This document shows positions 11,462-42,090 of a stretch of DNA of 64,000 nucleotides, piece by piece. Every line of letters starts with the position of its first letter. The first letter of the stretch is position 1. The notes below the pieces were generated by a model. That model saw nothing but the letters and a program-made list of their open reading frames with translations. It searched no databases and had not been told where the DNA came from. The position numbers and the translations under genes were made by a program. The stretch comes from Pantoea sp. RIT-PI-b (lineage in GTDB: Bacteria > Pseudomonadota > Gammaproteobacteria > Enterobacterales > Enterobacteriaceae): positions 1 to 64,000 of the forward strand of contig NZ_LGIS01000014.1 in NCBI RefSeq assembly GCF_001187905.1, read 5' to 3'.

Positions 11462-11516
11462 CTGTCACATCCCCGTCATAAACCTGTTATTAATCCGTCA
11501 TTTCCCCGTGTCATGT
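11462..11516 (+). promoter_or_regulatory. Tandem Pho boxes upstream of ugpB
   Basis: Five consecutive 11-base units start at 11462, 11473, 11484, 11495 and 11506 with CTGTCAC, CCGTCAT, CTGTTAT, CCGTCAT and CCGTGTC. The PhoB site is made of 11-bp repeats beginning CTGTCAT, so this is a double Pho box with an extra repeat, in the direction of ugpB, ending 60 bases before its ATG. Induction of ugp by phosphate starvation through PhoB is established in E. coli. Confidence 0.82.
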
Positions 11517-11576: not shown

Positions 11577-12893
11577 ATGTCCGCTTTTACGCTTCGTCCC
11601 CGCCTGATGAGTGTCGTGCTCGGTCTGGCGCTCAGCGGTAATGCGCTGGCTGCAACTGAGATCCCTTTCTGGCACTCAATGGAAGGCGAGTTAGGCAAAG
11701 AAGTTGATTCTCTGGCACAACGTTTTAACCAGGCTCATCCCGATTACAAAATCGTCCCGACTTATAAAGGTAACTACGAGCAGAGCCTGGCGGCGGGTAT
11801 TGCCGCTGTGCGCTCTGGCAAAGCGCCCGCGCTGCTGCAGGTGTATGAAGTCGGTACCGCGACCATGATGGCGTCAAAAGCGATCGTGCCGGTCAATGAA
11901 GTGTTTAAAAACGCTGGCGTGCAGATGGATCCGCAGCAGTTCGTGCCAGCCGTTGCCGGTTACTACAGTGATAGCAAAGGCCAGCTGATTTCTCAGCCGT
12001 TCAACAGCTCAACGCCGGTGCTGTACTACAACAAAGATGCCTTCAAAAAAGCCGGTCTGAACCCGGATCAGCCACCGAAAACCTGGCAGGAGCTGGCAAA
12101 AGACGCCGAAGCGCTGCGCAAAGCCGGCCTGACCTGTGGTTACGCCAGTGGCTGGCAGGGCTGGATTCAGATTGAAAACTTCAGCGCCTGGCATGCGCTG
12201 CCGGTGGCCACCAAAAACAACGGCTTTGACGGCACCGATGCAGTGCTGGAATTCAACCAGCCGGTGCAGGTGCGCCACATCGAAATGTTGGAAGCGATGA
12301 ACAAGAAAGGGGATTTCACCTACTTCGGTCGCAAGGATGAATCCACCGCCAAGTTCTACAACGGCGATTGCGGCATCACCACCGCCTCTTCCGGTTCGCT
12401 GGCCGACATCAAACACTACGCCAAATTTAACTTCGGCGTCGGCATGATGCCGTACGATGAAACCGTACCGAACGCACCGCAGAACGCCATTATTGGCGGC
12501 GCGAGCCTGTGGGTGATGAAAGGCAAAGATGCCAACACCTACAAAGGCGCGGCGGAGTTTATGAAGTTCCTCGCACAGCCGGAAATCGCCGCTGAATGGC
12601 ACCAGAAAACCGGTTATCTGCCGATCACCACCGCAGCCTATGAGCTGACTAAACAGCAGGGCTTCTACGACAAGAACCCAGGCGCAGACATCGCCACGCG
12701 TCAGATGCTGAACAAAGATCCGCTGCCGTTCACCAAAGGTATGCGTCTTGGCAACATGCCGCAGATTCGCACCATCGTGGACGAAGAGCTGGAGGGCGTG
12801 TGGACCGGCAAACAGGCACCACAAGCCGCGCTGGATAACGCGGTGAAACGCGGTAATGAACTGCTGCGCCGTTTTGAGCAGCAAGTGAAGTAA
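11577..12893 (+). CDS. ugpB: sn-Glycerol-3-phosphate-binding periplasmic protein UgpB
   Basis: UgpB captures glycerol-3-phosphate and glycerophosphodiesters in the periplasm for UgpAEC. The 438-residue protein has a signal peptide ending NALA at residue 25, then a MalE-like family 1 solute-binding fold beginning [15 protein letters not shown], where the Trp, His and Glu residues match the ligand site of the E. coli protein. It also has [10 protein letters not shown] near 280. Length equals E. coli UgpB. It leads the ugp operon behind the Pho boxes. Confidence 0.96.
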
Positions 12894-18752: not shown

Positions 18753-18805
18753 GTAGGGTCGCCACTCATGGCGACCGGGTTTGCAGGTGCGCATCAATGC
18801 GCACC
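18753..18805. repeat. GTAG-type palindromic repeats, kind A plus kind B
   Basis: Two units lie in tandem: kind A at 18753-18776 (GTAGGGTCGCCAC..CATGGCGACC) and kind B at 18786-18805 (GGTGCGCAT..ATGCGCACC). The same A+B order with a short linker recurs at 42031-42090, which suggests that the pair moves or duplicates as one element. Confidence 0.8.
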
Positions 18806-23878: not shown

Positions 23879-25504
23879 TCAATCCTCATCCCGCTCGTCA
23901 TCCGGCTGATCTAACACCGTGTACGCCACGGCGCAGAACAGCGAATTCAAACGTTTCATATCGCCCAATAATCCAAGATGCAGCGAGCTGGTTTCAATGC
24001 TTTGCACATTTTGCAGATGTAAACGCTCGACGTGCGCGTGGGAGAAGCGGCGAATCAGAATGCGGAAACGATGTTTAGAGCGGCGCAGGCGTTTGGCGCT
24101 GGTGACATCGTGCGACAGAAACACCGACAAACTCAGGCGCAGGTTATACAGCACCTGCTCCTGCAAGGTTTGCAGCTCCTCCAATCCTTCCGCTGAGAAG
24201 GCGCGGCGCGCGGTCAGCGACTTATCCGCTACGTCGGCGCACATGCGTTCAATAATATCGCCCGCCTGTTCCAGATTGAGCGCCATCTCAATGATCTCCG
24301 CCCAGCGGCGGGAATCATCCTCCGGCAAATCCTCTTTCGGCATGCGCGCCAGATAGAGTTTGATCGCGGTGTAGAGCACATCCACATCATCATCCAGCCG
24401 CCGCACCGCGCGCTCTTCTCGCAGGTCGCCGTGCACCACTTTATTGAATGACTCAATCATCTGCTCGACCACGTCGCCAATACGCAGCGTTTCGCGCGAG
24501 GCATTTGCCAGTGCTAACGCCGGCGTATCTAGCGCGCTACTGTCGAGATGTTTGGGTTTCAGATGGGTTTCATTCTCCGCATCGTCGTCAATCATGCGGC
24601 GGCACAGACGCGCCATCGGCTCGGCAAACGGCACCATCACTAAGCAGCGAATCAGGTTGTAGAACACGTGGAAGAAGATCACCAGCTCCTCATCATTGAC
24701 CGGTAATTTGTCGAGGATGTCGGCGACGAAATTGACGAACGGCAAAATGGCGATGCTGCCAATCAGCTTGAACAGCAGGCTGCCGAGTGCAACACGTTTG
24801 CCGGCGGCGTTGGAGCCGCTGGCGTTGATCATTGCCAGTAAGCCGCTGCCGAGGTTGGCGCCTATCACCAGACAAAGCGCGACTTTAAACGAGATGACGC
24901 CGGTTGCCGTCAGCGTAGCGGTAATCAGCACCGCCGCGAGGCTGGAGTAACTGATGATGGCAAACACCGCGCCAATCAACGCATCGAGCATCACGTCGCC
25001 AGTTAGCGTCGAGAACAGCACCTGCACGCCTGCCGCCTGGGTAATCGGTTTGGCGGCGGCGACAATCAGCTGCAACGCCAGCAAAATCAGCCCCAAACCT
25101 ATGCTGGCGCGGCCCAGCTGACCGCCGCGCGTCTGCTTGCGGCTGAGGAAAAACACTACGCCAAAGAAGATGAACAGCGGCGAAAGCCACGTCAGATCAA
25201 AGGTCAGGATGCGCGCCATGATGGCGGTACCGACATCGGCACCCAGCACCACGACCAGCGCGGGCGTGAGGCTCACCAGATTCTGCGCGACAAAAGAGGT
25301 GACGAGCAGCGTGGTGGCGTTACTGCTTTGCACCAGCGCTGTGACGCCAATCCCGGCGAGAAACGCCATCGGTTTTTTTTCGACGCTGCGGCTGAGTACA
25401 CGACGCAGATCGGCACCGTAAACGCGCATGATACCGGTACGCACGATGTGCGTGCCCCACACCAGCAGCGCAACGGCAGAGAGTAGATTAAGCAGAGTTA
25501 ACAC
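23879..25504 (-). CDS. yjbB: Na+/phosphate cotransporter family protein YjbB
   Basis: The protein matches E. coli YjbB (543 residues), which exports phosphate and affects polyphosphate level. An N-terminal NptA/Na-Pi cotransporter region has two QSSNA-type repeats (ALVQSSNATTLLVTSF near 50-65; ISYSSLAAVLITATL near 185-199), followed by a cytoplasmic PhoU-like helical domain from about residue 330. The start is taken as GTG at 25502-25504 (VLTLLNLLSAV), which has GAGGAG upstream and gives 541 residues; an ATG 30 bases further up lacks a good ribosome site. Confidence 0.9.
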   Translation of the reverse strand: MLTLLNLLSAVALLVWGTHIVRTGIMRVYGADLRRVLSRSVEKKPMAFLAGIGVTALVQSSNATTLLVTSFVAQNLVSLTPALVVVLGADVGTAIMARILTFDLTWLSPLFIFFGVVFFLSRKQTRGGQLGRASIGLGLILLALQLIVAAAKPITQAAGVQVLFSTLTGDVMLDALIGAVFAIISYSSLAAVLITATLTATGVISFKVALCLVIGANLGSGLLAMINASGSNAAGKRVALGSLLFKLIGSIAILPFVNFVADILDKLPVNDEELVIFFHVFYNLIRCLVMVPFAEPMARLCRRMIDDDAENETHLKPKHLDSSALDTPALALANASRETLRIGDVVEQMIESFNKVVHGDLREERAVRRLDDDVDVLYTAIKLYLARMPKEDLPEDDSRRWAEIIEMALNLEQAGDIIERMCADVADKSLTARRAFSAEGLEELQTLQEQVLYNLRLSLSVFLSHDVTSAKRLRRSKHRFRILIRRFSHAHVERLHLQNVQSIETSSLHLGLLGDMKRLNSLFCAVAYTVLDQPDDERDED

Positions 25505-25521
25505 GGTTAAAGGCTCCTCAT

Positions 25522-25559
25522 CCGTCAGGCGCAAACAACACCGATTGCCAGCCTGACGG
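25522..25559. other. Hairpin in the yjbB leader
   Basis: CCGTCAGGC at 25522-25530 pairs perfectly with GCCTGACGG at 25551-25559 across 20 bases. On the minus strand it lies just upstream of the yjbB ribosome site and downstream of the ABC operon. It may be a weak terminator for that operon or a leader structure of yjbB. Confidence 0.45.
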
Positions 25560-25614: not shown

Positions 25615-26607
25615 TTAAGCGACCTGGCGCAACGTCGACATCTCTAACTGTAGCCCAATCTGCATGCCAGCGGGGTGCAAATCTGCCACGCTACGGTTGA
25701 GGACATCAATCGAGAGCTCGACGTTTTGTGCGCGCACGCGATAGCGGATCACGTTGCCGAGCAAGCTGTGGCTGAGGATGGTGGCGGGAATGCCATCCGG
25801 TGGCGCGCACAGCCGAATTGACTCGGGACGAATCGCCACCTGGCCGCTAAATGTTTGGCCGGTAAGCTGCAATGCCTGCTCGGCGCTCAGCAGGTTGTAG
25901 TTGCCAATAAATCCGGCGGCGAACAGATCGGCTGGCTCGGTATACAGCCTCTCAGCGTTGCCGTTCTGCACGATCTTGCCACGATTCATCAACACGATGC
26001 GATCGGACATCGTCAACGCTTCTTCCTGATCGTGGGTGACGAACAGGGTGGTGAGTTTTAGCTCTTTTTGAATATTACGGATCTGTTCGCGCAGATGACG
26101 GCGAATACGCGCATCCAGCGCCGACAGCGGTTCGTCCAGCAGCAGCAAGCGTGGACGCGTCACCAGCGAACGTGCCAGCGCCACGCGCTGACACTGTCCG
26201 CCCGAAAGCTGATGCGGATAGCGGCGCGCGAAATCGGTGAGTTCGACCAGCGCCAGCACCTCCATCACGCGTTTTTGAATATCGCCGCTGGCCAGCTTCT
26301 GCATCTTCAGACCAAACGCCACATTCTTCTCAACCGTCATATTCGGAAACAGCGCGTAGCTCTGGAACACCATGCCAATGGTGCGCTTCTGCGGCGGCAG
26401 CGGCACGATATCCTGACCTTGCAGCAGCACTTTACCGCTATCAACGTCAGTCAATCCGGCGATGCAGCGTAGCAGCGTGGATTTACCGCAGCCGCTTGGG
26501 CCGAGCAGGGTGACAAACTCGCCCTCTTCGGCGCTAAAATCGATGTTTTCAAAAATGGCGGTCGGGCCGTAGCTTTTATTCAACTGAGTGACGTTCAGAT
26601 AACTCAT
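25615..26607 (-). CDS. ABC importer ATPase (organophosphorus-type module)
   Basis: ATPase of a five-gene importer operon, 330 residues: Walker [10 protein letters not shown] near 37-45, signature LSGGQCQR near 135-142, Walker B LLLLDEPLSALDA, switch VTHDQEEAL, then a C-terminal TOBE-like domain from about 245 (VAIRPESIRL). It resembles the FbpC/PotA/PhnT group. The usual second Gln of LSGGQQQR is a Cys here. It starts 2 bases after the upstream permease gene. The imported compound is not shown by this subunit; the context points to a phosphorus compound. Confidence 0.85.
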   Translation of the reverse strand: MSYLNVTQLNKSYGPTAIFENIDFSAEEGEFVTLLGPSGCGKSTLLRCIAGLTDVDSGKVLLQGQDIVPLPPQKRTIGMVFQSYALFPNMTVEKNVAFGLKMQKLASGDIQKRVMEVLALVELTDFARRYPHQLSGGQCQRVALARSLVTRPRLLLLDEPLSALDARIRRHLREQIRNIQKELKLTTLFVTHDQEEALTMSDRIVLMNRGKIVQNGNAERLYTEPADLFAAGFIGNYNLLSAEQALQLTGQTFSGQVAIRPESIRLCAPPDGIPATILSHSLLGNVIRYRVRAQNVELSIDVLNRSVADLHPAGMQIGLQLEMSTLRQVA

Positions 26608-26609
26608 GG

Positions 26610-27395
26610 TCAGCCTCGTTCAGGATTGAGGGCATTCGCCAGCCAGGTGACCAGCAGAACGACGGCAAAATAGGAGATCACCAGCGCACTGGTGAAGTGG
26701 CCGCTGCCGTTGCGCATGTTAAACAGATAAACCTGCAAGGTTTCATAGCGGGTGCCGACCAGCATGTTAGCGAAGACGAATTCACCAATCAGGAAGGAGA
26801 AGGAGAGCAGCACCGCGATAAACACCCCTTTACGCAGGTTTGGCAGCACCACAAACAGCGCAGCCTGCCAGGTGCTGGCGCCGAGCAGCTGGGCGGCATC
26901 AATCAGCTCTTTTAGGTTGATCGCCTGCATGTTGTTGGAGATGGCGCGGTAGATAAATGGCAAAGCGATGGTGAAGTAGCAGCCGATCAAAATCCACGGC
27001 GTGCCGGTCAGCATCAAGGGTGACGACGAATAGAGCTGCGGCAGGCCGACCGATGACACCACCGGCGGCACGGCGAACGGCATCAGAATCAGCACATTCA
27101 TTACCGCATCCAGCTTCGGATAGTAGTAAGCGATCACAAACATGGCGGGCAGCACCAGCACCAGCGAGAACAGTAGCGCACCGAAGCAAACCAGCAGCGA
27201 ATGTCCCAGCGCCGTCAGGAAACGTGGATCGCTCCACAGCGCAGTCAGCCATTTAAGCGTAAAGCCCTGCGGCAGAATAGTGTCGCTCCAGCTGGTGGAA
27301 ATGCCGTACAGCAGCGTCGCCAGCAGCGGCGCGGCCAGGATGCACAGCAGCAGCCAGACAATCAGGCGATGGTAAAATTTTTCCGCGCGAGACAC
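26610..27395 (-). CDS. ABC importer permease, second subunit
   Basis: The 261 residues carry six hydrophobic segments and a binding-protein-dependent transport domain with the EAA-type loop LKELIDAAQLLGASTWQAALFVVLP near 160-185. It is the PhnV-like (PotC-type) partner of the permease encoded just upstream, with a 10-base gap between them. ATG at 27393-27395 is preceded by GGAG. Substrate unknown; see the hydrolase and regulator entries for the phosphorus link. Confidence 0.85.
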   Translation of the reverse strand: MSRAEKFYHRLIVWLLLCILAAPLLATLLYGISTSWSDTILPQGFTLKWLTALWSDPRFLTALGHSLLVCFGALLFSLVLVLPAMFVIAYYYPKLDAVMNVLILMPFAVPPVVSSVGLPQLYSSSPLMLTGTPWILIGCYFTIALPFIYRAISNNMQAINLKELIDAAQLLGASTWQAALFVVLPNLRKGVFIAVLLSFSFLIGEFVFANMLVGTRYETLQVYLFNMRNGSGHFTSALVISYFAVVLLVTWLANALNPERG

Positions 27396-27405
27396 GTGTG
27401 GCTCC

Positions 27406-28251
27406 TTAAGACGCTTTGGCGTTGAGATAGCTGCGGCGCACCAGATATTGCTGCACCACGGTAATCAGCGCCATGATCAGCACCAGCAGCATCGCCAGCG
27501 CACCGCCGGTATTGGGATCGAGTGAGATATCGCCGGATACCAGCGCCGCGATGCGCACCGGCACCACGTTAAAGTTGCCGGTTGTCAGCGCGTAAATGGT
27601 GGCGTAAGCACCGAGCGCGTTAGCCAGCAAAATCACGAAGGTGCCGAGTAGCGCCGGGAACAGAATCGGTAAACCGATATGCCACCAATAGCGCCCGCGC
27701 CCCGCGCCCAGCAGCGCGGCGGACTCCTGCCAATCCTGCCGCAAGCCATCAAACGCCGGATAGAGCAGCAAAATGCCAAGCGGGATTTGGAACCAGGTGT
27801 AAACCAGCACCATGCCGTCGCGCGAGAACAGCTTAAAGCCCTCCAGCACGCCGTAATGGCGCAGCAGCAGCGTCAGGCAGCCGTTCAGGCCAAGCAGGAT
27901 GACAAAGGCAAACGCCAGCGGCACGCCGGCGAAGTTGCTGGTCATGTTGGTAAATGACATTAAAAAGCGCTGAAAACGCCCGCTGCCGAGTTGATGTAAC
28001 GAATATCCAGCAATAAGCGAGATCAGCAGACCATAAATGCTTGACCAGATGGAGATATCCAGCGACAGGCGAAAGGCCTGTAAATAGAATGGCGAAGTGA
28101 GAATATCGCTATAGTTATCAATGCCCCAACGCTCATTCATGTCGCTCCAGAAGCTGTTGATAGCAATCCACAGCAGCGGTGCGAGCTGAAACGCCACCCA
28201 GAACAGGGCAAAAGGCAGCAGCAGCAGGGAAGCGAGCGTTTTTCCTTTCAT
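27406..28251 (-). CDS. ABC importer permease, first subunit
   Basis: PotB/PhnU-type membrane subunit of 281 residues with six membrane segments; the coupling loop is near 185-205 (ESAALLGAGRGRYWWHIGLPIL). The chosen ATG (28249-28251) overlaps the stop of the preceding hydrolase gene by one base (TAATG), showing translational coupling. A 10-residue longer frame would start inside that gene. It forms the membrane channel with the next gene product. Confidence 0.85.
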   Translation of the reverse strand: MKGKTLASLLLLPFALFWVAFQLAPLLWIAINSFWSDMNERWGIDNYSDILTSPFYLQAFRLSLDISIWSSIYGLLISLIAGYSLHQLGSGRFQRFLMSFTNMTSNFAGVPLAFAFVILLGLNGCLTLLLRHYGVLEGFKLFSRDGMVLVYTWFQIPLGILLLYPAFDGLRQDWQESAALLGAGRGRYWWHIGLPILFPALLGTFVILLANALGAYATIYALTTGNFNVVPVRIAALVSGDISLDPNTGGALAMLLVLIMALITVVQQYLVRRSYLNAKAS

Positions 28252-29060
28252 TACTGCGGCTCCGCCAGTAACGCGCGGCAAACCGGCTTATCATGCTCAA
28301 CGCCGAGTAAGGTGCAAACGATACCGCATAGCTCGGTCTGCTGGGGTTTGAGATCCGGCTGCAGTGAAAAACCGGCGCCAAACACAAACAGCGGCACCTG
28401 CGTCTCTTCGGGCAAAATGCCGCCGTGCGAGCGGTCATCGTTCATGCCGTGATCGGCGGTGACAATCACCTGATATCCGGCGGCCAGCCAACCTGGCATC
28501 CACTGCGACAGGTAACCATCGGCCATGCGCGCGCGGTTGCGATATTGCGGCGATGACAAACTGTGTTTGTGCCCGGCATCGTCAATGTTCATCGGGTGGA
28601 TCAGCAGGAAGTCCGGATCGTGGCGCAGGCGCAGGCTTTCCGCGTCCTCAAACAGATGGGAATCCGGATAGCCGTCGTCCCAGTAAAAGTGCCCATACTG
28701 AATCGGCAGGTCGGGTGCGGCCGTATGCCGGTCGCGCACCGCATTGAACGGGGAGTGATTGTAAAGTTCACTCACCCAGTGATAGGCGGCCGCAGCGGTG
28801 GTGAGACCGGCTGCACGCGCATAATGGAAGATGCTGCGCTGATTACTTAAACGGCTGACGCCATTATGAATAATGCCGCTGCGCACCGGTGGAATGCCGG
28901 TGAGAATGCATTCATACAGCGGACGCGACAGCGAAGGCAGCTCGCAGGTCAGCGTGTAATATTGGCCGTTGCCCTGCGCGCATTCGGCAAATAGATAGCC
29001 CATCGCGTGCTGCGCTACCTGATTGCTCAGGCCATCCAACACCACCAGGATTGTTTTCAT
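28251..29060 (-). CDS. Alkaline-phosphatase-superfamily hydrolase (NPP/PhnA-like), cytoplasmic
   Basis: The 269-residue protein has no signal peptide and carries the two-metal site of the nucleotide pyrophosphatase/phosphonoacetate hydrolase branch: Asp9 in VVLDG, a candidate nucleophile Ser45 in PSLSRP, Asp160 and His164 in a DxxGH motif, Asp203-His204 in TADHG and His212. It is shorter than PhnA (about 400) and NPP proteins, lacking a cap. Its position inside an importer operon suggests that it splits the imported compound, a phosphodiester or phosphonate. AAGGAG lies just before the ATG at 29058-29060. The exact substrate is not known to me. Confidence 0.78.
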   Translation of the reverse strand: MKTILVVLDGLSNQVAQHAMGYLFAECAQGNGQYYTLTCELPSLSRPLYECILTGIPPVRSGIIHNGVSRLSNQRSIFHYARAAGLTTAAAAYHWVSELYNHSPFNAVRDRHTAAPDLPIQYGHFYWDDGYPDSHLFEDAESLRLRHDPDFLLIHPMNIDDAGHKHSLSSPQYRNRARMADGYLSQWMPGWLAAGYQVIVTADHGMNDDRSHGGILPEETQVPLFVFGAGFSLQPDLKPQQTELCGIVCTLLGVEHDKPVCRALLAEPQ

Positions 29061-29090
29061 CCCTTCTCCTTTATGGCAATCGTTAATCCA

Positions 29091-29114
29091 GGTGCGCATA
29101 AATGCGCACCCTAC
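29091..29114. repeat. GTAG-type palindromic repeat, kind B, inside an operon
   Basis: On the minus strand the unit reads GTAGGGTGCGCAT, two bases, ATGCGCACC. It lies in the 63-base gap between the binding-protein stop and the hydrolase gene, that is, within the transcribed operon. Other copies are at 18786-18805 and 42067-42090. Confidence 0.8.
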
Positions 29115-29123
29115 AAAACAACG

Positions 29124-30185
29124 TTACTGTTTCATATTGATGATGACGTTCTCCTGCCACAGGCGCGGCAGCATTTTCGACGTCTTATCCCATGCCGCCT
29201 GGTCTTTGATTGGACGGGCATTCTTATACTCAGACTGCGGTAACAGTTTGGCCTGCACGTCAGCCGGCAGGGTTAAATGCTCAGCACGAATCGGACGCGC
29301 ATAGCCTTTCGCCAGGTTGATCTGGCCTTCATCAGACAAGATGTATTCACGCGCCAGCTTGGCGGCATTTGGGTGTTTAGCGTACTTGTTGATGATGGTG
29401 CTGTAGCCCGAGGTGACGGAACCATCGGAGGGGATCACCACTTCGTAGCGATTTTTGTCGATTTGATCGCGATAGTTCAGACCGTTGAAGTCCCACACCA
29501 CGGCAACCTGAATTTCGCCTTTCTCGATGTTGGCAATCACCGGATCGGTTACGCCAAGACGGCCCTCTTTCGCCAGGTCACCGAAGAAGCTCAGCGCCGG
29601 TTTAACGTTCTTCTCGTCACCGCCCATGGCGTAGCTGGCCGCCAGTACACCGTTGGCCGCTTGAGCTGCAGTACCGACGTCGCCGATAGTGACCACATAC
29701 TTACCTTTCTTTAAATCGGCCCAGCTGTGTGGCACATCTTTCACCTGCTGCTTATCGACCAGGAAGGCGATGGTGCCGGTGTAGGCCAGCATCCAGTTGC
29801 CATCCTGATCTTTCGCCCAGCTCGGAATTTGATCCCAATGCGTTGGCTTGTAAGGTTGTGCTACGCCTTTCGCGACGGCAATCGGACCGAAAGCGGCACC
29901 CACATCACCGATATCGGCGCTGGCGTTCTCCTTCTCTGCAGCAAATTTTGCCAGCTCTTGCGCAGAAGACATGTCAGTGTCGCTGTGTTTCAGACCATAT
30001 TTGCTGCTGAGATCACTCCAGGTATCTTTCCAGTTGGCCCAGCTATCCGGCATGCCGACGCTGTTAACCTGGCCTTCAGCGCGCGCGGCTTTTTCTAACG
30101 CGGCGAGGTCATTATCTGCAGCTTGCGCGGCAGGCAGCGCAAGCAGTACGGCACTGGCTACTACAGAGGCGATAAACGCTTTCAT
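29124..30185 (-). CDS. ABC importer periplasmic solute-binding protein
   Basis: First gene of the operon. The 353-residue protein has a signal peptide (cleavage after AQA, residue 22) and a family 1-type/FbpA-like solute-binding fold: GQVNSVGMPDSWANWKD near 39-55, YTGTIAFLVDK, and VAVVWDFNGLNYRDQ near 234-248. It resembles binding proteins annotated for iron or 2-aminoethylphosphonate; the paired tyrosines that bind iron in FbpA are not obvious. Ligand remains open. Confidence 0.85.
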   Translation of the reverse strand: MKAFIASVVASAVLLALPAAQAADNDLAALEKAARAEGQVNSVGMPDSWANWKDTWSDLSSKYGLKHSDTDMSSAQELAKFAAEKENASADIGDVGAAFGPIAVAKGVAQPYKPTHWDQIPSWAKDQDGNWMLAYTGTIAFLVDKQQVKDVPHSWADLKKGKYVVTIGDVGTAAQAANGVLAASYAMGGDEKNVKPALSFFGDLAKEGRLGVTDPVIANIEKGEIQVAVVWDFNGLNYRDQIDKNRYEVVIPSDGSVTSGYSTIINKYAKHPNAAKLAREYILSDEGQINLAKGYARPIRAEHLTLPADVQAKLLPQSEYKNARPIKDQAAWDKTSKMLPRLWQENVIINMKQ

Positions 30186-30348
30186 CTCGATTGCTCCCGG
30201 TATATGTTGTGGGACTTCTTGGTCTAGTCCAGCAAGAACCGAGCCAATGTAGCCCGAGTAGATGAAGGTTTTATGACCATGGTGGTGAAATGTGGTGTGG
30301 CGCGACGATCCACATGCGGTTACAGCGCGCTAAAGCGTGGGTTGACTC

Positions 30349-30381
30349 TTGTCACATTGTAGTCATCGAACTGTCATAGTG
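30349..30381 (+). promoter_or_regulatory. Pho-box-like repeats between importer operon and its regulator
   Basis: Three consecutive 11-base units start at 30349, 30360 and 30371 with TTGTCAC, TAGTCAT and CTGTCAT. The 11-bp period and CTGTCAT core are those of PhoB sites, and the units point to the regulator gene 29 bases further on. TTGACT at 30343-30348 adjoins. The match is weaker than that before ugpB, so this is a candidate site. Confidence 0.55.
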
Positions 30382-30409
30382 CAGATTTGCCCCAAAATGA
30401 GGCTGAAAA

Positions 30410-31108
30410 ATGTTGTCAAAAACGGCGGATATGATTGCGGCAGGCGTGCGGGAACGCATTGAAAACGGTGAATTTGCCAGCGGTCGTTTGCCTGCGGAGC
30501 GCGCGTTAAGCGAACACTATTCCACCACGCGCATCACGCTGCGTGAGGCGTTGGGTTTGCTGGAAGCGCAGGGCATAATTTATCGCGAATTGCGCCGTGG
30601 CTGGTTTCTCGCACCGCCGCGCCTGGTTTATAACCCTTCGCATCACAGCCATTTTCATGCGATGGCGGCCGAGCAAGGTCGCGTTGCCAGCACCGAAGTG
30701 CTTGAAGCGCGTGAAGTGCCAGCCCAGTTGGCGATTGCGCATCATCTGCAGCTGCTGGAGGGCGACAAGGTGTACCGCATTCGCCGTTTGCGCCGCATTG
30801 ACGGCCGCGCGGTGTTGTATGTTGAGCATTACCTTAATCCAGCCTATTTCCCGGGCTTGCTGGATGAAGATCTCACGCGTTCACTCACCGATCTCTATGA
30901 CCAGCGCTACGGCATCCGCTACGGTGGCGCGCGCTTTACTATTTTGCCGGGGCCACTTCCGGTGCGTGCTGCGCCTGCGCTCAATGTCGCCAGCGGTACG
31001 CCGGGCTTACTGATTACCCGCATCAACCGCGATCAGCACAAGCGAGTGATTGATTGTGACTGCGAGTTCTGGCGCTACGACGCGCTGTGCGTAGATGTTG
31101 AAGTATAA
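30410..31108 (+). CDS. GntR-family transcriptional regulator with UTRA domain, PhnR-like
   Basis: The 232-residue protein has a GntR winged helix (about 5-65, with RITLREALGLLEAQGIIYRE as recognition region) and a UTRA effector domain (about 85-228). RRGWF after the wing and the C-terminal FWRYDAL resemble Salmonella PhnR, the regulator next to the 2-aminoethylphosphonate importer phnSTUV. It is divergent from the importer operon, so it is probably its local regulator, with the imported compound or its product as the effector (inference). Confidence 0.8.
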   Translation: MLSKTADMIAAGVRERIENGEFASGRLPAERALSEHYSTTRITLREALGLLEAQGIIYRELRRGWFLAPPRLVYNPSHHSHFHAMAAEQGRVASTEVLEAREVPAQLAIAHHLQLLEGDKVYRIRRLRRIDGRAVLYVEHYLNPAYFPGLLDEDLTRSLTDLYDQRYGIRYGGARFTILPGPLPVRAAPALNVASGTPGLLITRINRDQHKRVIDCDCEFWRYDALCVDVEV

Positions 31109-31178: not shown

Positions 31179-31589
31179 ATGACAATAAAAACAGGGGTTG
31201 GGCAGTACATTTCATTAGCATTGCAGTGGGTGCTCAACATTGGCCTGATTATTCTGGCCATTATTCTGGTGGTGTTTCTCGGTAAGGAAACCATTCATCT
31301 GGCCAATGTGTTGTTCAGCACCGGTGAGCAGACCTCTTCTTATCTGCTGATTGAAGGCATCGTGATCTATTTCCTCTATTTCGAATTTATCGCGTTGATT
31401 GTGAAGTACTTTCAGTCGGGCTATCACTTTCCGCTGCGCTATTTTATCTACATCGGTATCACCGCCATTATTCGCCTGATCATCGTCGACCATAAAAACC
31501 CGTTTGATACGCTCTATTATTCAGCGGCGATTTTGATTCTGGTGGTGACGCTGTGGCTGGCAAACAGTAACCGCCTGAAGCGCGAGTAA
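31179..31589 (+). CDS. psiE: Phosphate-starvation-inducible membrane protein PsiE
   Basis: The 136-residue protein equals E. coli PsiE in length and matches it strongly in the core ([54 protein letters not shown]; positions about 27-110). It has four membrane segments. Its role in phosphate starvation is unknown. It adjoins the phosphorus-type importer module and precedes ubiC. Confidence 0.94.
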
Positions 31590-42030: not shown

Positions 42031-42090
42031 GGGTCGCCATGAATGGCGATCCTAAGCAAGCCAGTGGTAGGGTGCGCATTGATGCGCACC
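42031..42090. repeat. GTAG-type palindromic repeats, kind A plus kind B
   Basis: Kind A (GGGTCGCCATGAATGGCGAT, 42031-42050) is followed by kind B with its full GTAG head at 42067-42090. The A+B order repeats that at 18753-18805. It lies just after the dusA stop. Confidence 0.8.

Follow-up and report, generated by a model that had tools for sequence, protein, structure and literature searches.

Which compound is taken up by a bacterial operon that carries a hydrolase of its own among the genes of an ATP-binding cassette (ABC) importer? This question is raised by a locus at positions 25,615 to 31,108 of a 64,000-nucleotide stretch of Pantoea sp. RIT-PI-b DNA (contig NZ_LGIS01000014.1, positions 1 to 64,000), which is called the window here. 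A sequence-only reading of this DNA had proposed a phosphorus-scavenging system. This proposal is borne out by PhoB boxes across species, the nucleotide pyrophosphatase/phosphodiesterase (NPP) fold of the hydrolase, a HAD phosphatase gene in most loci, the reported phosphate regulation of the homologous Campylobacter jejuni region, and a PhnR-like regulator. The operon is real and conserved, and it is very probably a Pho-controlled system for organophosphorus acquisition. With slightly better than even confidence, we regard it as a phosphate-starvation module under dual control that imports a small organic phosphate and then hydrolyzes it in steps, the most probable substrate being a phosphodiester.

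The operon consists of five minus-strand genes with intergenic gaps of at most 63 bp, which face a regulator gene on the plus strand. In order from the regulator, they encode a periplasmic binding protein of the SBP_bac_6 family whose N-terminus is signal-like by eye (29,124–30,185, minus strand), a small NPP-like hydrolase of 269 residues (28,251–29,060, minus strand; PF01663, Phosphodiest), permease 1 (27,406–28,251, minus strand; PF00528, BPD_transp_1, 38.9 bits), permease 2 (26,610–27,395, minus strand; PF00528, 49.5 bits), and an ABC ATPase with a TOBE domain (25,615–26,607, minus strand; PF00005, ABC_tran, and PF08402, TOBE_2). Permease 1 begins with an ATG at 28,251, in a frame open to 28,281, and its start overlaps the hydrolase stop as TAATG. 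The divergent gene (30,410–31,108, plus strand) encodes a PhnR-like GntR/UTRA regulator (PF07702, 132.7 bits). The coordinates, order, and Pfam families agree with the arrangement described from the sequence.

The hydrolase scores 54.3 bits against PF01663, for which the gathering score is 23. Its predicted fold (predicted local distance difference test, pLDDT, 97.8) is that of a shortened NPP, and the NPP fold extends across the whole protein. The metal-motif residues that had been picked out by eye, D9, S45, D160, H164, D203, H204, and H212, are the same in all 46 chosen homologues, and these seven residues plus N66 are found in all 146 homologues of a redundant set. Ser45 is the presumed nucleophile and the other six are presumed metal ligands, with Asn66 as the phosphate-binding residue. 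We assume these roles by carrying them over from NPP chemistry. Classical NPPs have a Thr nucleophile and a third His about 100 or more residues past the DH motif. Here, the nucleophile position is Ser in 146 of 146 homologues, and H212 stands eight residues past H204; in a Rahnella NPP taken for comparison, the HGG histidine lies 137 residues past the DH histidine. The hydrolase is an NPP-fold variant of PF01663 and not a classical NPP. Since the presumed metal ligand D9 follows the first beta-strand (residues 3–7), a signal peptide is unlikely, as had been claimed for this 269-residue enzyme, and the protein is probably cytosolic. Glycosylphosphatidylinositol ethanolamine-phosphate transferases, whose DHGM...HGG motif is similar to that of the hydrolase, were not among the structural-search matches listed, and nothing is concluded from this absence. 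The phage collection gave no match to the hydrolase. Distant homologues at 27–33% (L007, L008, L137–L140, and L147) were kept out of the operon argument; two of them, L007 and L147, adjoin SBP_bac_5 genes.

Is this operon controlled by phosphate? A PhoB matrix, built from eight E. coli PhoB sites, was run over the 64-kb window. Three of the seven best sites lie before ugpB, three lie in the 224-bp gap that separates the regulator gene from the binding-protein gene, and one is inside an unrelated open frame. The ugpB gene (11,577–12,893; 873 bits with the UgpB model), with a PhoB-box-like run just upstream (11,462–11,501), serves as a positive control. The matrix also gives a 22.4-bit box directly before phnC of the same genome. 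Directed toward the operon is the PhoB-box-like site TGGTCATAAAACCTTCAT (30,262–30,279, minus strand), which at 13.6 bits is the fifth best in 64 kb. The sequence TACATT (30,246–30,251, minus strand), 10 bp downstream of this site, may act as the −10 element. A PhoB-box-like run of three 11-bp repeats (30,349–30,377, plus strand), with overlapping 18-mers of 15.1 and 12.8 bits, points toward the regulator.

Control-region counts across species cover the 81 loci that have both genes; six loci with genes missing or cut were skipped. The PhoB score of the divergent region is above the 95th percentile of random segments, which are mostly coding DNA, in 80 of the 81 loci, and above the 99th percentile in 63. 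A stricter control is provided by 132 upstream regions of other genes. Scores of at least 9 bits are reached in 23 of 27 chosen loci and in 13 of these 132 regions, and 20 of the 27 loci exceed the 95th percentile of the other upstream regions. The box about 76 bp before the start of the binding-protein gene recurs in Pantoea and its kin. The site directed toward the regulator is present in most Pseudomonas loci and absent from some Pantoea loci (L028, L031, and L032) and the Rahnella loci. As judged from its DNA, the operon appears to belong to the Pho regulon, with a conserved PhoB-box-like sequence at a promoter position.

The same gap also contains a candidate site for the PhnR-like regulator, the operator-like sequence TGGACTAGACCA (30,220–30,231, minus strand). 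Operators of the GntR/UTRA class resemble this sequence. The palindromic family TGGWCTAGWCCA has a single match in the 5.27-Mb genome, namely TGGACTAGACCA; a reversed control pattern likewise matches in one place. With at most one mismatch, TGGACTAGACCA is found in the same intergenic region in 80 of the 81 loci and in three places only elsewhere in those loci; the random segments used as controls for it may overlap the operator itself. Seven of the 132 control regions hold it with at most two mismatches, three of them exactly. The operator is mostly located 31–51 bp before the start of the binding-protein gene in Enterobacterales and beside the regulator start in Pseudomonas. We infer that the PhnR-like regulator pairs with this site. 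Dual control by phosphate starvation and substrate is the simplest reading of the region.

How widely is the unit conserved? The loci compared are the best 80 of at least 584 confirmed stretches, and they therefore lean to close relatives. In this neighborhood survey, 77 of the 80 have the full set of six genes. In two of the others (L066 and L098), the sequence starts near the missing genes and appears truncated by a contig end; the third, from Erwinia persicina (L035), is a real deletion with loss of the importer. In that locus, most of the binding protein is deleted, and the hydrolase frame (L035:7875-8810) is retained between a 48-residue remnant of the binding protein and yjbB. The six genes are also complete in 7 of 18 further, more varied regions around the hydrolase, 9 of which have a HAD gene; the remaining regions include hydrolases without this importer. 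Loci were found in genera including Pantoea, Erwinia, Dickeya, Rahnella, Rouxiella, Lonsdalea, Mangrovibacter, and Pseudomonas, and one record each of Halomonas, Vibrio, and Aeromonas has all six genes. The hydrolase is encoded in 29 of 35 other genomes of the genus and in 41 of 398 genomes of the phylum (E 1e-20; the window's own genome included). A megablast search of complete E. coli genomes, which detects close DNA only, gave no match to the operon. Among 72,556 plasmid records, 198 have the hydrolase, of which 179 are from Enterococcus. The one E. faecium plasmid record examined lacks the regulator but keeps the gene order of binding protein, hydrolase, two permeases, and ATPase. Large Enterococcus plasmids often carry the hydrolase, and many of these plasmids are from clinical samples. 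The nearest genome (L020), with proteins 95–100% identical, is titled Enterobacter ludwigii and has a Pantoea-type neighborhood, so its title may be wrong.

A second enzyme often accompanies the operon. A HAD phosphatase gene lies within 147 bp after the ATPase gene in 63 of the 80 loci. The 17 loci without it are from Pantoea, Erwinia, Dickeya, Mangrovibacter, and Lonsdalea, together with L020 and L030, which look like Pantoea kin. The gene is present in the Vibrio and Aeromonas records and is not seen in those of Halomonas and E. faecium. One genome has overlapping hydrolase and HAD genes, and the importer next to them is of the SBP_bac_5 type. Operon HAD proteins of two loci (L002 and L036) belong to the HAD-IB subfamily TIGR01490. 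Their identity as histidinol phosphatases was rejected, with scores of 200.9 and 216.6 bits against the cut-off of 280 for NF052360 (HolPasePseu). The genome of the window has one 45% HAD relative elsewhere, and the six PhoB-like sites that score best in its 10-kb stretch all lie outside the gap before that gene. On the E. faecium plasmid, a PHP-domain gene is divergent beside the operon, and its best model over the cut-off is named hypothetical protein.

This association is what chiefly favors a diester over a phosphonate, because a diesterase followed by a monoesterase would suit the stepwise release of phosphate. The same association bears on the import of a phosphomonoester, such as a sugar phosphate, phosphoethanolamine, or phosphoserine, with the hydrolase as an intracellular monoesterase of the alkaline phosphatase type. 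In that case, the HAD enzyme would be redundant as a second phosphatase in the operon. The best diester-cleaving NPPs also rank about 3 Z units above PafA in the structural comparison with the hydrolase, but ENPP6 ties with PafA (both 26.3), and a fold proves no function. We regard monoester uptake as distinctly unlikely.

Could the substrate be a phosphonate? The hydrolase would then cleave its C–P bond or a phosphonate ester, in the manner of PhnA with phosphonoacetate. Several observations support this possibility and weigh against a phosphodiester. The regulator is closest to PhnR: its top score of all models is with TIGR03337 (phnR), 258.2 bits, yet below the cut-off of 296.75, so the claimed resemblance holds as a resemblance. 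PhnA structures match the hydrolase by sequence. For the binding protein, Foldseek places Salmonella PhnS next after a C. jejuni protein. According to PMC10574752, three putative transporter genes form a cluster with phnA, the phosphonoacetate hydrolase gene of P. fluorescens 23F. The curated models, on the other hand, do not name the six proteins; no NCBIfam model among the matches listed reaches its cut-off. The ATPase, for which 25 of 189 models were listed, scores best among these with PhnT2 (383.6 bits against 457.7) and lower with PhnT (297.3 against 499.15). The best NCBIfam match of permease 2 is PhnV at 88.3 bits, far below the cut-off of 358.7, the PhnU model gives 22.1 and 23.0 bits against 283.45, and the binding protein gives 40.4 against 395.3 with PhnS and 54.9 against 310 with NF011620. 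The hydrolase reaches just 22.3 bits with TIGR02335 (PhnA), for which the cut-off is 407.55. The identities PhnSTUV, PhnA, and PhnR were rejected on these scores, and of the NPP/PhnA branch proposed for the hydrolase, NPP stands as a shortened variant and PhnA falls away. The window's genome has no PhnW match over the cut-off and already has the C–P lyase (PhnJ). In addition, a C–P hydrolase that yields phosphate directly would not need a HAD partner. A phosphonate substrate is less likely than a phosphodiester, and we consider phosphonate scavenging unlikely, though worth keeping in view. A link to PhnW through a class V aminotransferase in one genome (L141) was dropped, as the aminotransferase is closest to SufS.

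The fold of the binding protein does not name its ligand, because its relatives bind a variety of compounds. It is 69% identical over 327 residues to 5t1p, a solved C. jejuni binding protein. After 5t1p, Foldseek lists Salmonella STM0429 (4r6y), followed by, among others, AfuA with bound hexose phosphate; PMC10574752 describes 4r6y as the PhnS structure. By VIA-align, Mg-citrate binders tie with PhnS, and the wider structural list contains binders of iron, polyamines, thiamin, and sugars. Distant relatives of the binding protein adjoin NPPs or metallophosphoesterases in 3 of 6 plasmid regions. On plasmids of R. leguminosarum (L161) and Rahnella aceris (L160:2090-9812), an importer of the same type is divergent from a DeoR-type regulator and a 490–510-residue NPP, and the Rahnella region additionally carries a metallophosphoesterase. 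These importers are possibly a second import-then-cut phosphorus system. On P. aeruginosa RW109 plasmid 1 (L156:3093-10713), an aralkylamine dehydrogenase cluster is adjoined by a binding protein and permeases of this family and by a 46% HAD relative, without the hydrolase. A lone binding-protein gene on a Streptomyces avidinii plasmid (L157:7953-8969), 66–67% identical to that of the window with no importer genes annotated alongside, may be a stray transfer or contamination.

What is published about the homologues? We take 5t1p to be Cj0727 and presume that a type I phosphodiesterase and a HAD protein are encoded in the C. jejuni region. In P. aeruginosa, we assume that PA3249–PA3255 corresponds to this unit, from the numbering of the neighboring prc gene and from PA3249 being a transcription factor, and we take PA3249 as the counterpart of the PhnR-like regulator. 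The C. jejuni region is reported to be phosphate-regulated (PMC1892558), Cj0727–Cj0755 is listed with phosphate-regulated genes (PMC2292242), and Cj0732 and PhoX are both increased in chicken-juice biofilms (PMC11202532). The cj0727–cj0733 region is described as an operon currently without an assigned function (PMC7176700). The 36 exoproteins of P. aeruginosa under phosphate starvation include PA3250 (PMC4899797). PA3249 is reported as a transcription factor that binds the amrZ promoter (PMC8041468), which counts against a purely local role of the regulator. In a published table, PP1726 is 25-fold lower in nitrogen-limited P. putida, and no tie to phosphate was found. The accessible literature, mostly outside subscription journals, assigns no function to cj0727–cj0733, PA3250–PA3254, PP_1725/PP_1726, or 5T1P, and names 5T1P solely in work on protein motion prediction. 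Within this scope, the operon has no assigned function, though the C. jejuni region is known as phosphate-regulated.

The binding-protein relatives, which include binders of Fe(III) and of Mg-citrate, also raise the import of a metal chelate, iron, or another non-phosphorus compound; the hydrolase would then attack a different bond, for instance a sulfate ester. These relatives, the cluster analysis in PMC7176700 that groups cj0730 with iron-acquisition genes, and the fold shared by sulfatases and the hydrolase all speak against a phosphorus substrate. They are opposed by the PhoB-box sequences, the reports that phosphate regulates the C. jejuni region, and the frequent presence of phosphatase or phosphoesterase genes as neighbors. 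Iron import, as suggested by the family name SBP_bac_6, was set aside because of the PhoB boxes and phosphatase neighbors, and we consider any non-phosphorus function very unlikely.

How would the favored import-then-hydrolyze module work? At low phosphate, PhoB would be active at the boxes of the divergent promoter region. The PhnR-like protein would sit on TGGACTAGACCA, between the −10 element and the binding-protein gene, until released by the substrate or its product, and the operon would therefore need both signals. The binding protein would capture the intact compound, and the ABC transporter would import it. In the cytosol, the small NPP-like enzyme would cut it with Ser45, Asn66, and two metals into a phosphomonoester and an alcohol. 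A phosphomonoesterase would then free the phosphate. In most species, this may be the HAD enzyme encoded in the operon; E. faecium would perhaps use the PHP-domain protein encoded beside it, and Pantoea a general phosphatase. As for the compound, a tentative guess that may well prove wrong is a glycerophosphodiester whose head group is an amino alcohol, for example glycerophosphoethanolamine.

In most descriptions of organic phosphorus use by bacteria, hydrolysis takes place in the periplasm or outside the cell, and the phosphate is then taken up. We put it at a little short of even that this conserved system takes up one specific phosphodiester intact, cuts it in the cytosol by means of an NPP-type core of unusually small size, and responds to phosphate starvation as well as to its substrate. 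If so, bacteria would compete for a particular phosphodiester, perhaps a remnant of a phospholipid head group, and the phosphate would not be shared with neighbors, unlike that released by periplasmic or secreted phosphatases. Plant-associated bacteria, Pseudomonas, and plasmids of E. faecium would have an intact-uptake system with its own hydrolase and regulator, and often a phosphatase. This raises the testable question of which phosphodiester or phosphonate merits import as a whole. It could also give functions to cj0727–cj0732, to the 5t1p structure, and to genes annotated just as alkaline phosphatase family protein.

Both flanking genes noted from the sequence are present, a yjbB-type Na/Pi cotransporter gene (23,879–25,534, minus strand; TIGR01013, 433.2 bits) and psiE (31,179–31,589, plus strand; NF002764, 241.8 bits), but they are only local neighbors. 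They were set aside as functional partners because they are near the operon in only 23 and 12 of the 80 loci, respectively. The yjbB gene is probably a unit separate from the operon. Between the binding-protein and hydrolase genes, there is a stem-loop (29,091–29,110, minus strand), and the 76-nt stretch there folds with a z of −3.1. It is one copy of a near-perfect dispersed hairpin repeat, GGTGCGCATTTATGCGCACC, found at three places in 64 kb (18,786–18,805, 29,091–29,110, and 42,071–42,090) where none is expected.

How does the operon compare with known systems? The closest logic in print is that of agrocinopine import and cleavage. The acc proteins of Agrobacterium belong to the SBP_bac_5 and GDPD families. 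According to PMC7356202 and PMC4526662, agrocinopine is imported through the binding protein AccA and cleaved inside the cell by AccF. Like the proposed system, acc brings in an intact phosphodiester through a binding protein and cuts it inside, under a repressor (AccR) that answers to the product. The SBP_bac_6 importer, shortened NPP, and GntR/UTRA regulator seen here are of other protein families, and whereas acc is Agrobacterium's, this unit is kept in Gammaproteobacteria, is homologous to that of an Enterococcus plasmid, and by report is in Campylobacter. The C. jejuni cj0727–cj0733 region has a close relative of the binding protein and is likewise reported to be under phosphate regulation. 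The Salmonella phnSTUV/PhnR system for 2-aminoethylphosphonate uptake shares a related binding-protein fold (4r6y), a PhnR-like regulator, and the organophosphorus theme; it differs in that the importer parts here are below the curated cut-offs and an NPP-like hydrolase is inside the operon. Among described enzymes, PhnA of P. fluorescens 23F comes nearest as a precedent; the gene for this hydrolase of the alkaline phosphatase superfamily is likewise beside transporter genes. The PhnR of that cluster is of the LysR type and not GntR, the nucleophile of PhnA is Thr and not Ser, and the solved PhnA has 406 residues compared with 269 here. Because the operon is widespread and this phnA cluster has already been described, the novelty implied by the sequence-only reading is weaker than stated. 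The principle of import followed by hydrolysis and the phosphate regulation of the C. jejuni homologues are already known. The PhoB boxes, the operator-like TGGACTAGACCA, the shortened NPP fold, and the association with a downstream HAD gene are new here. The operon is a testable orphan system and not a new principle.

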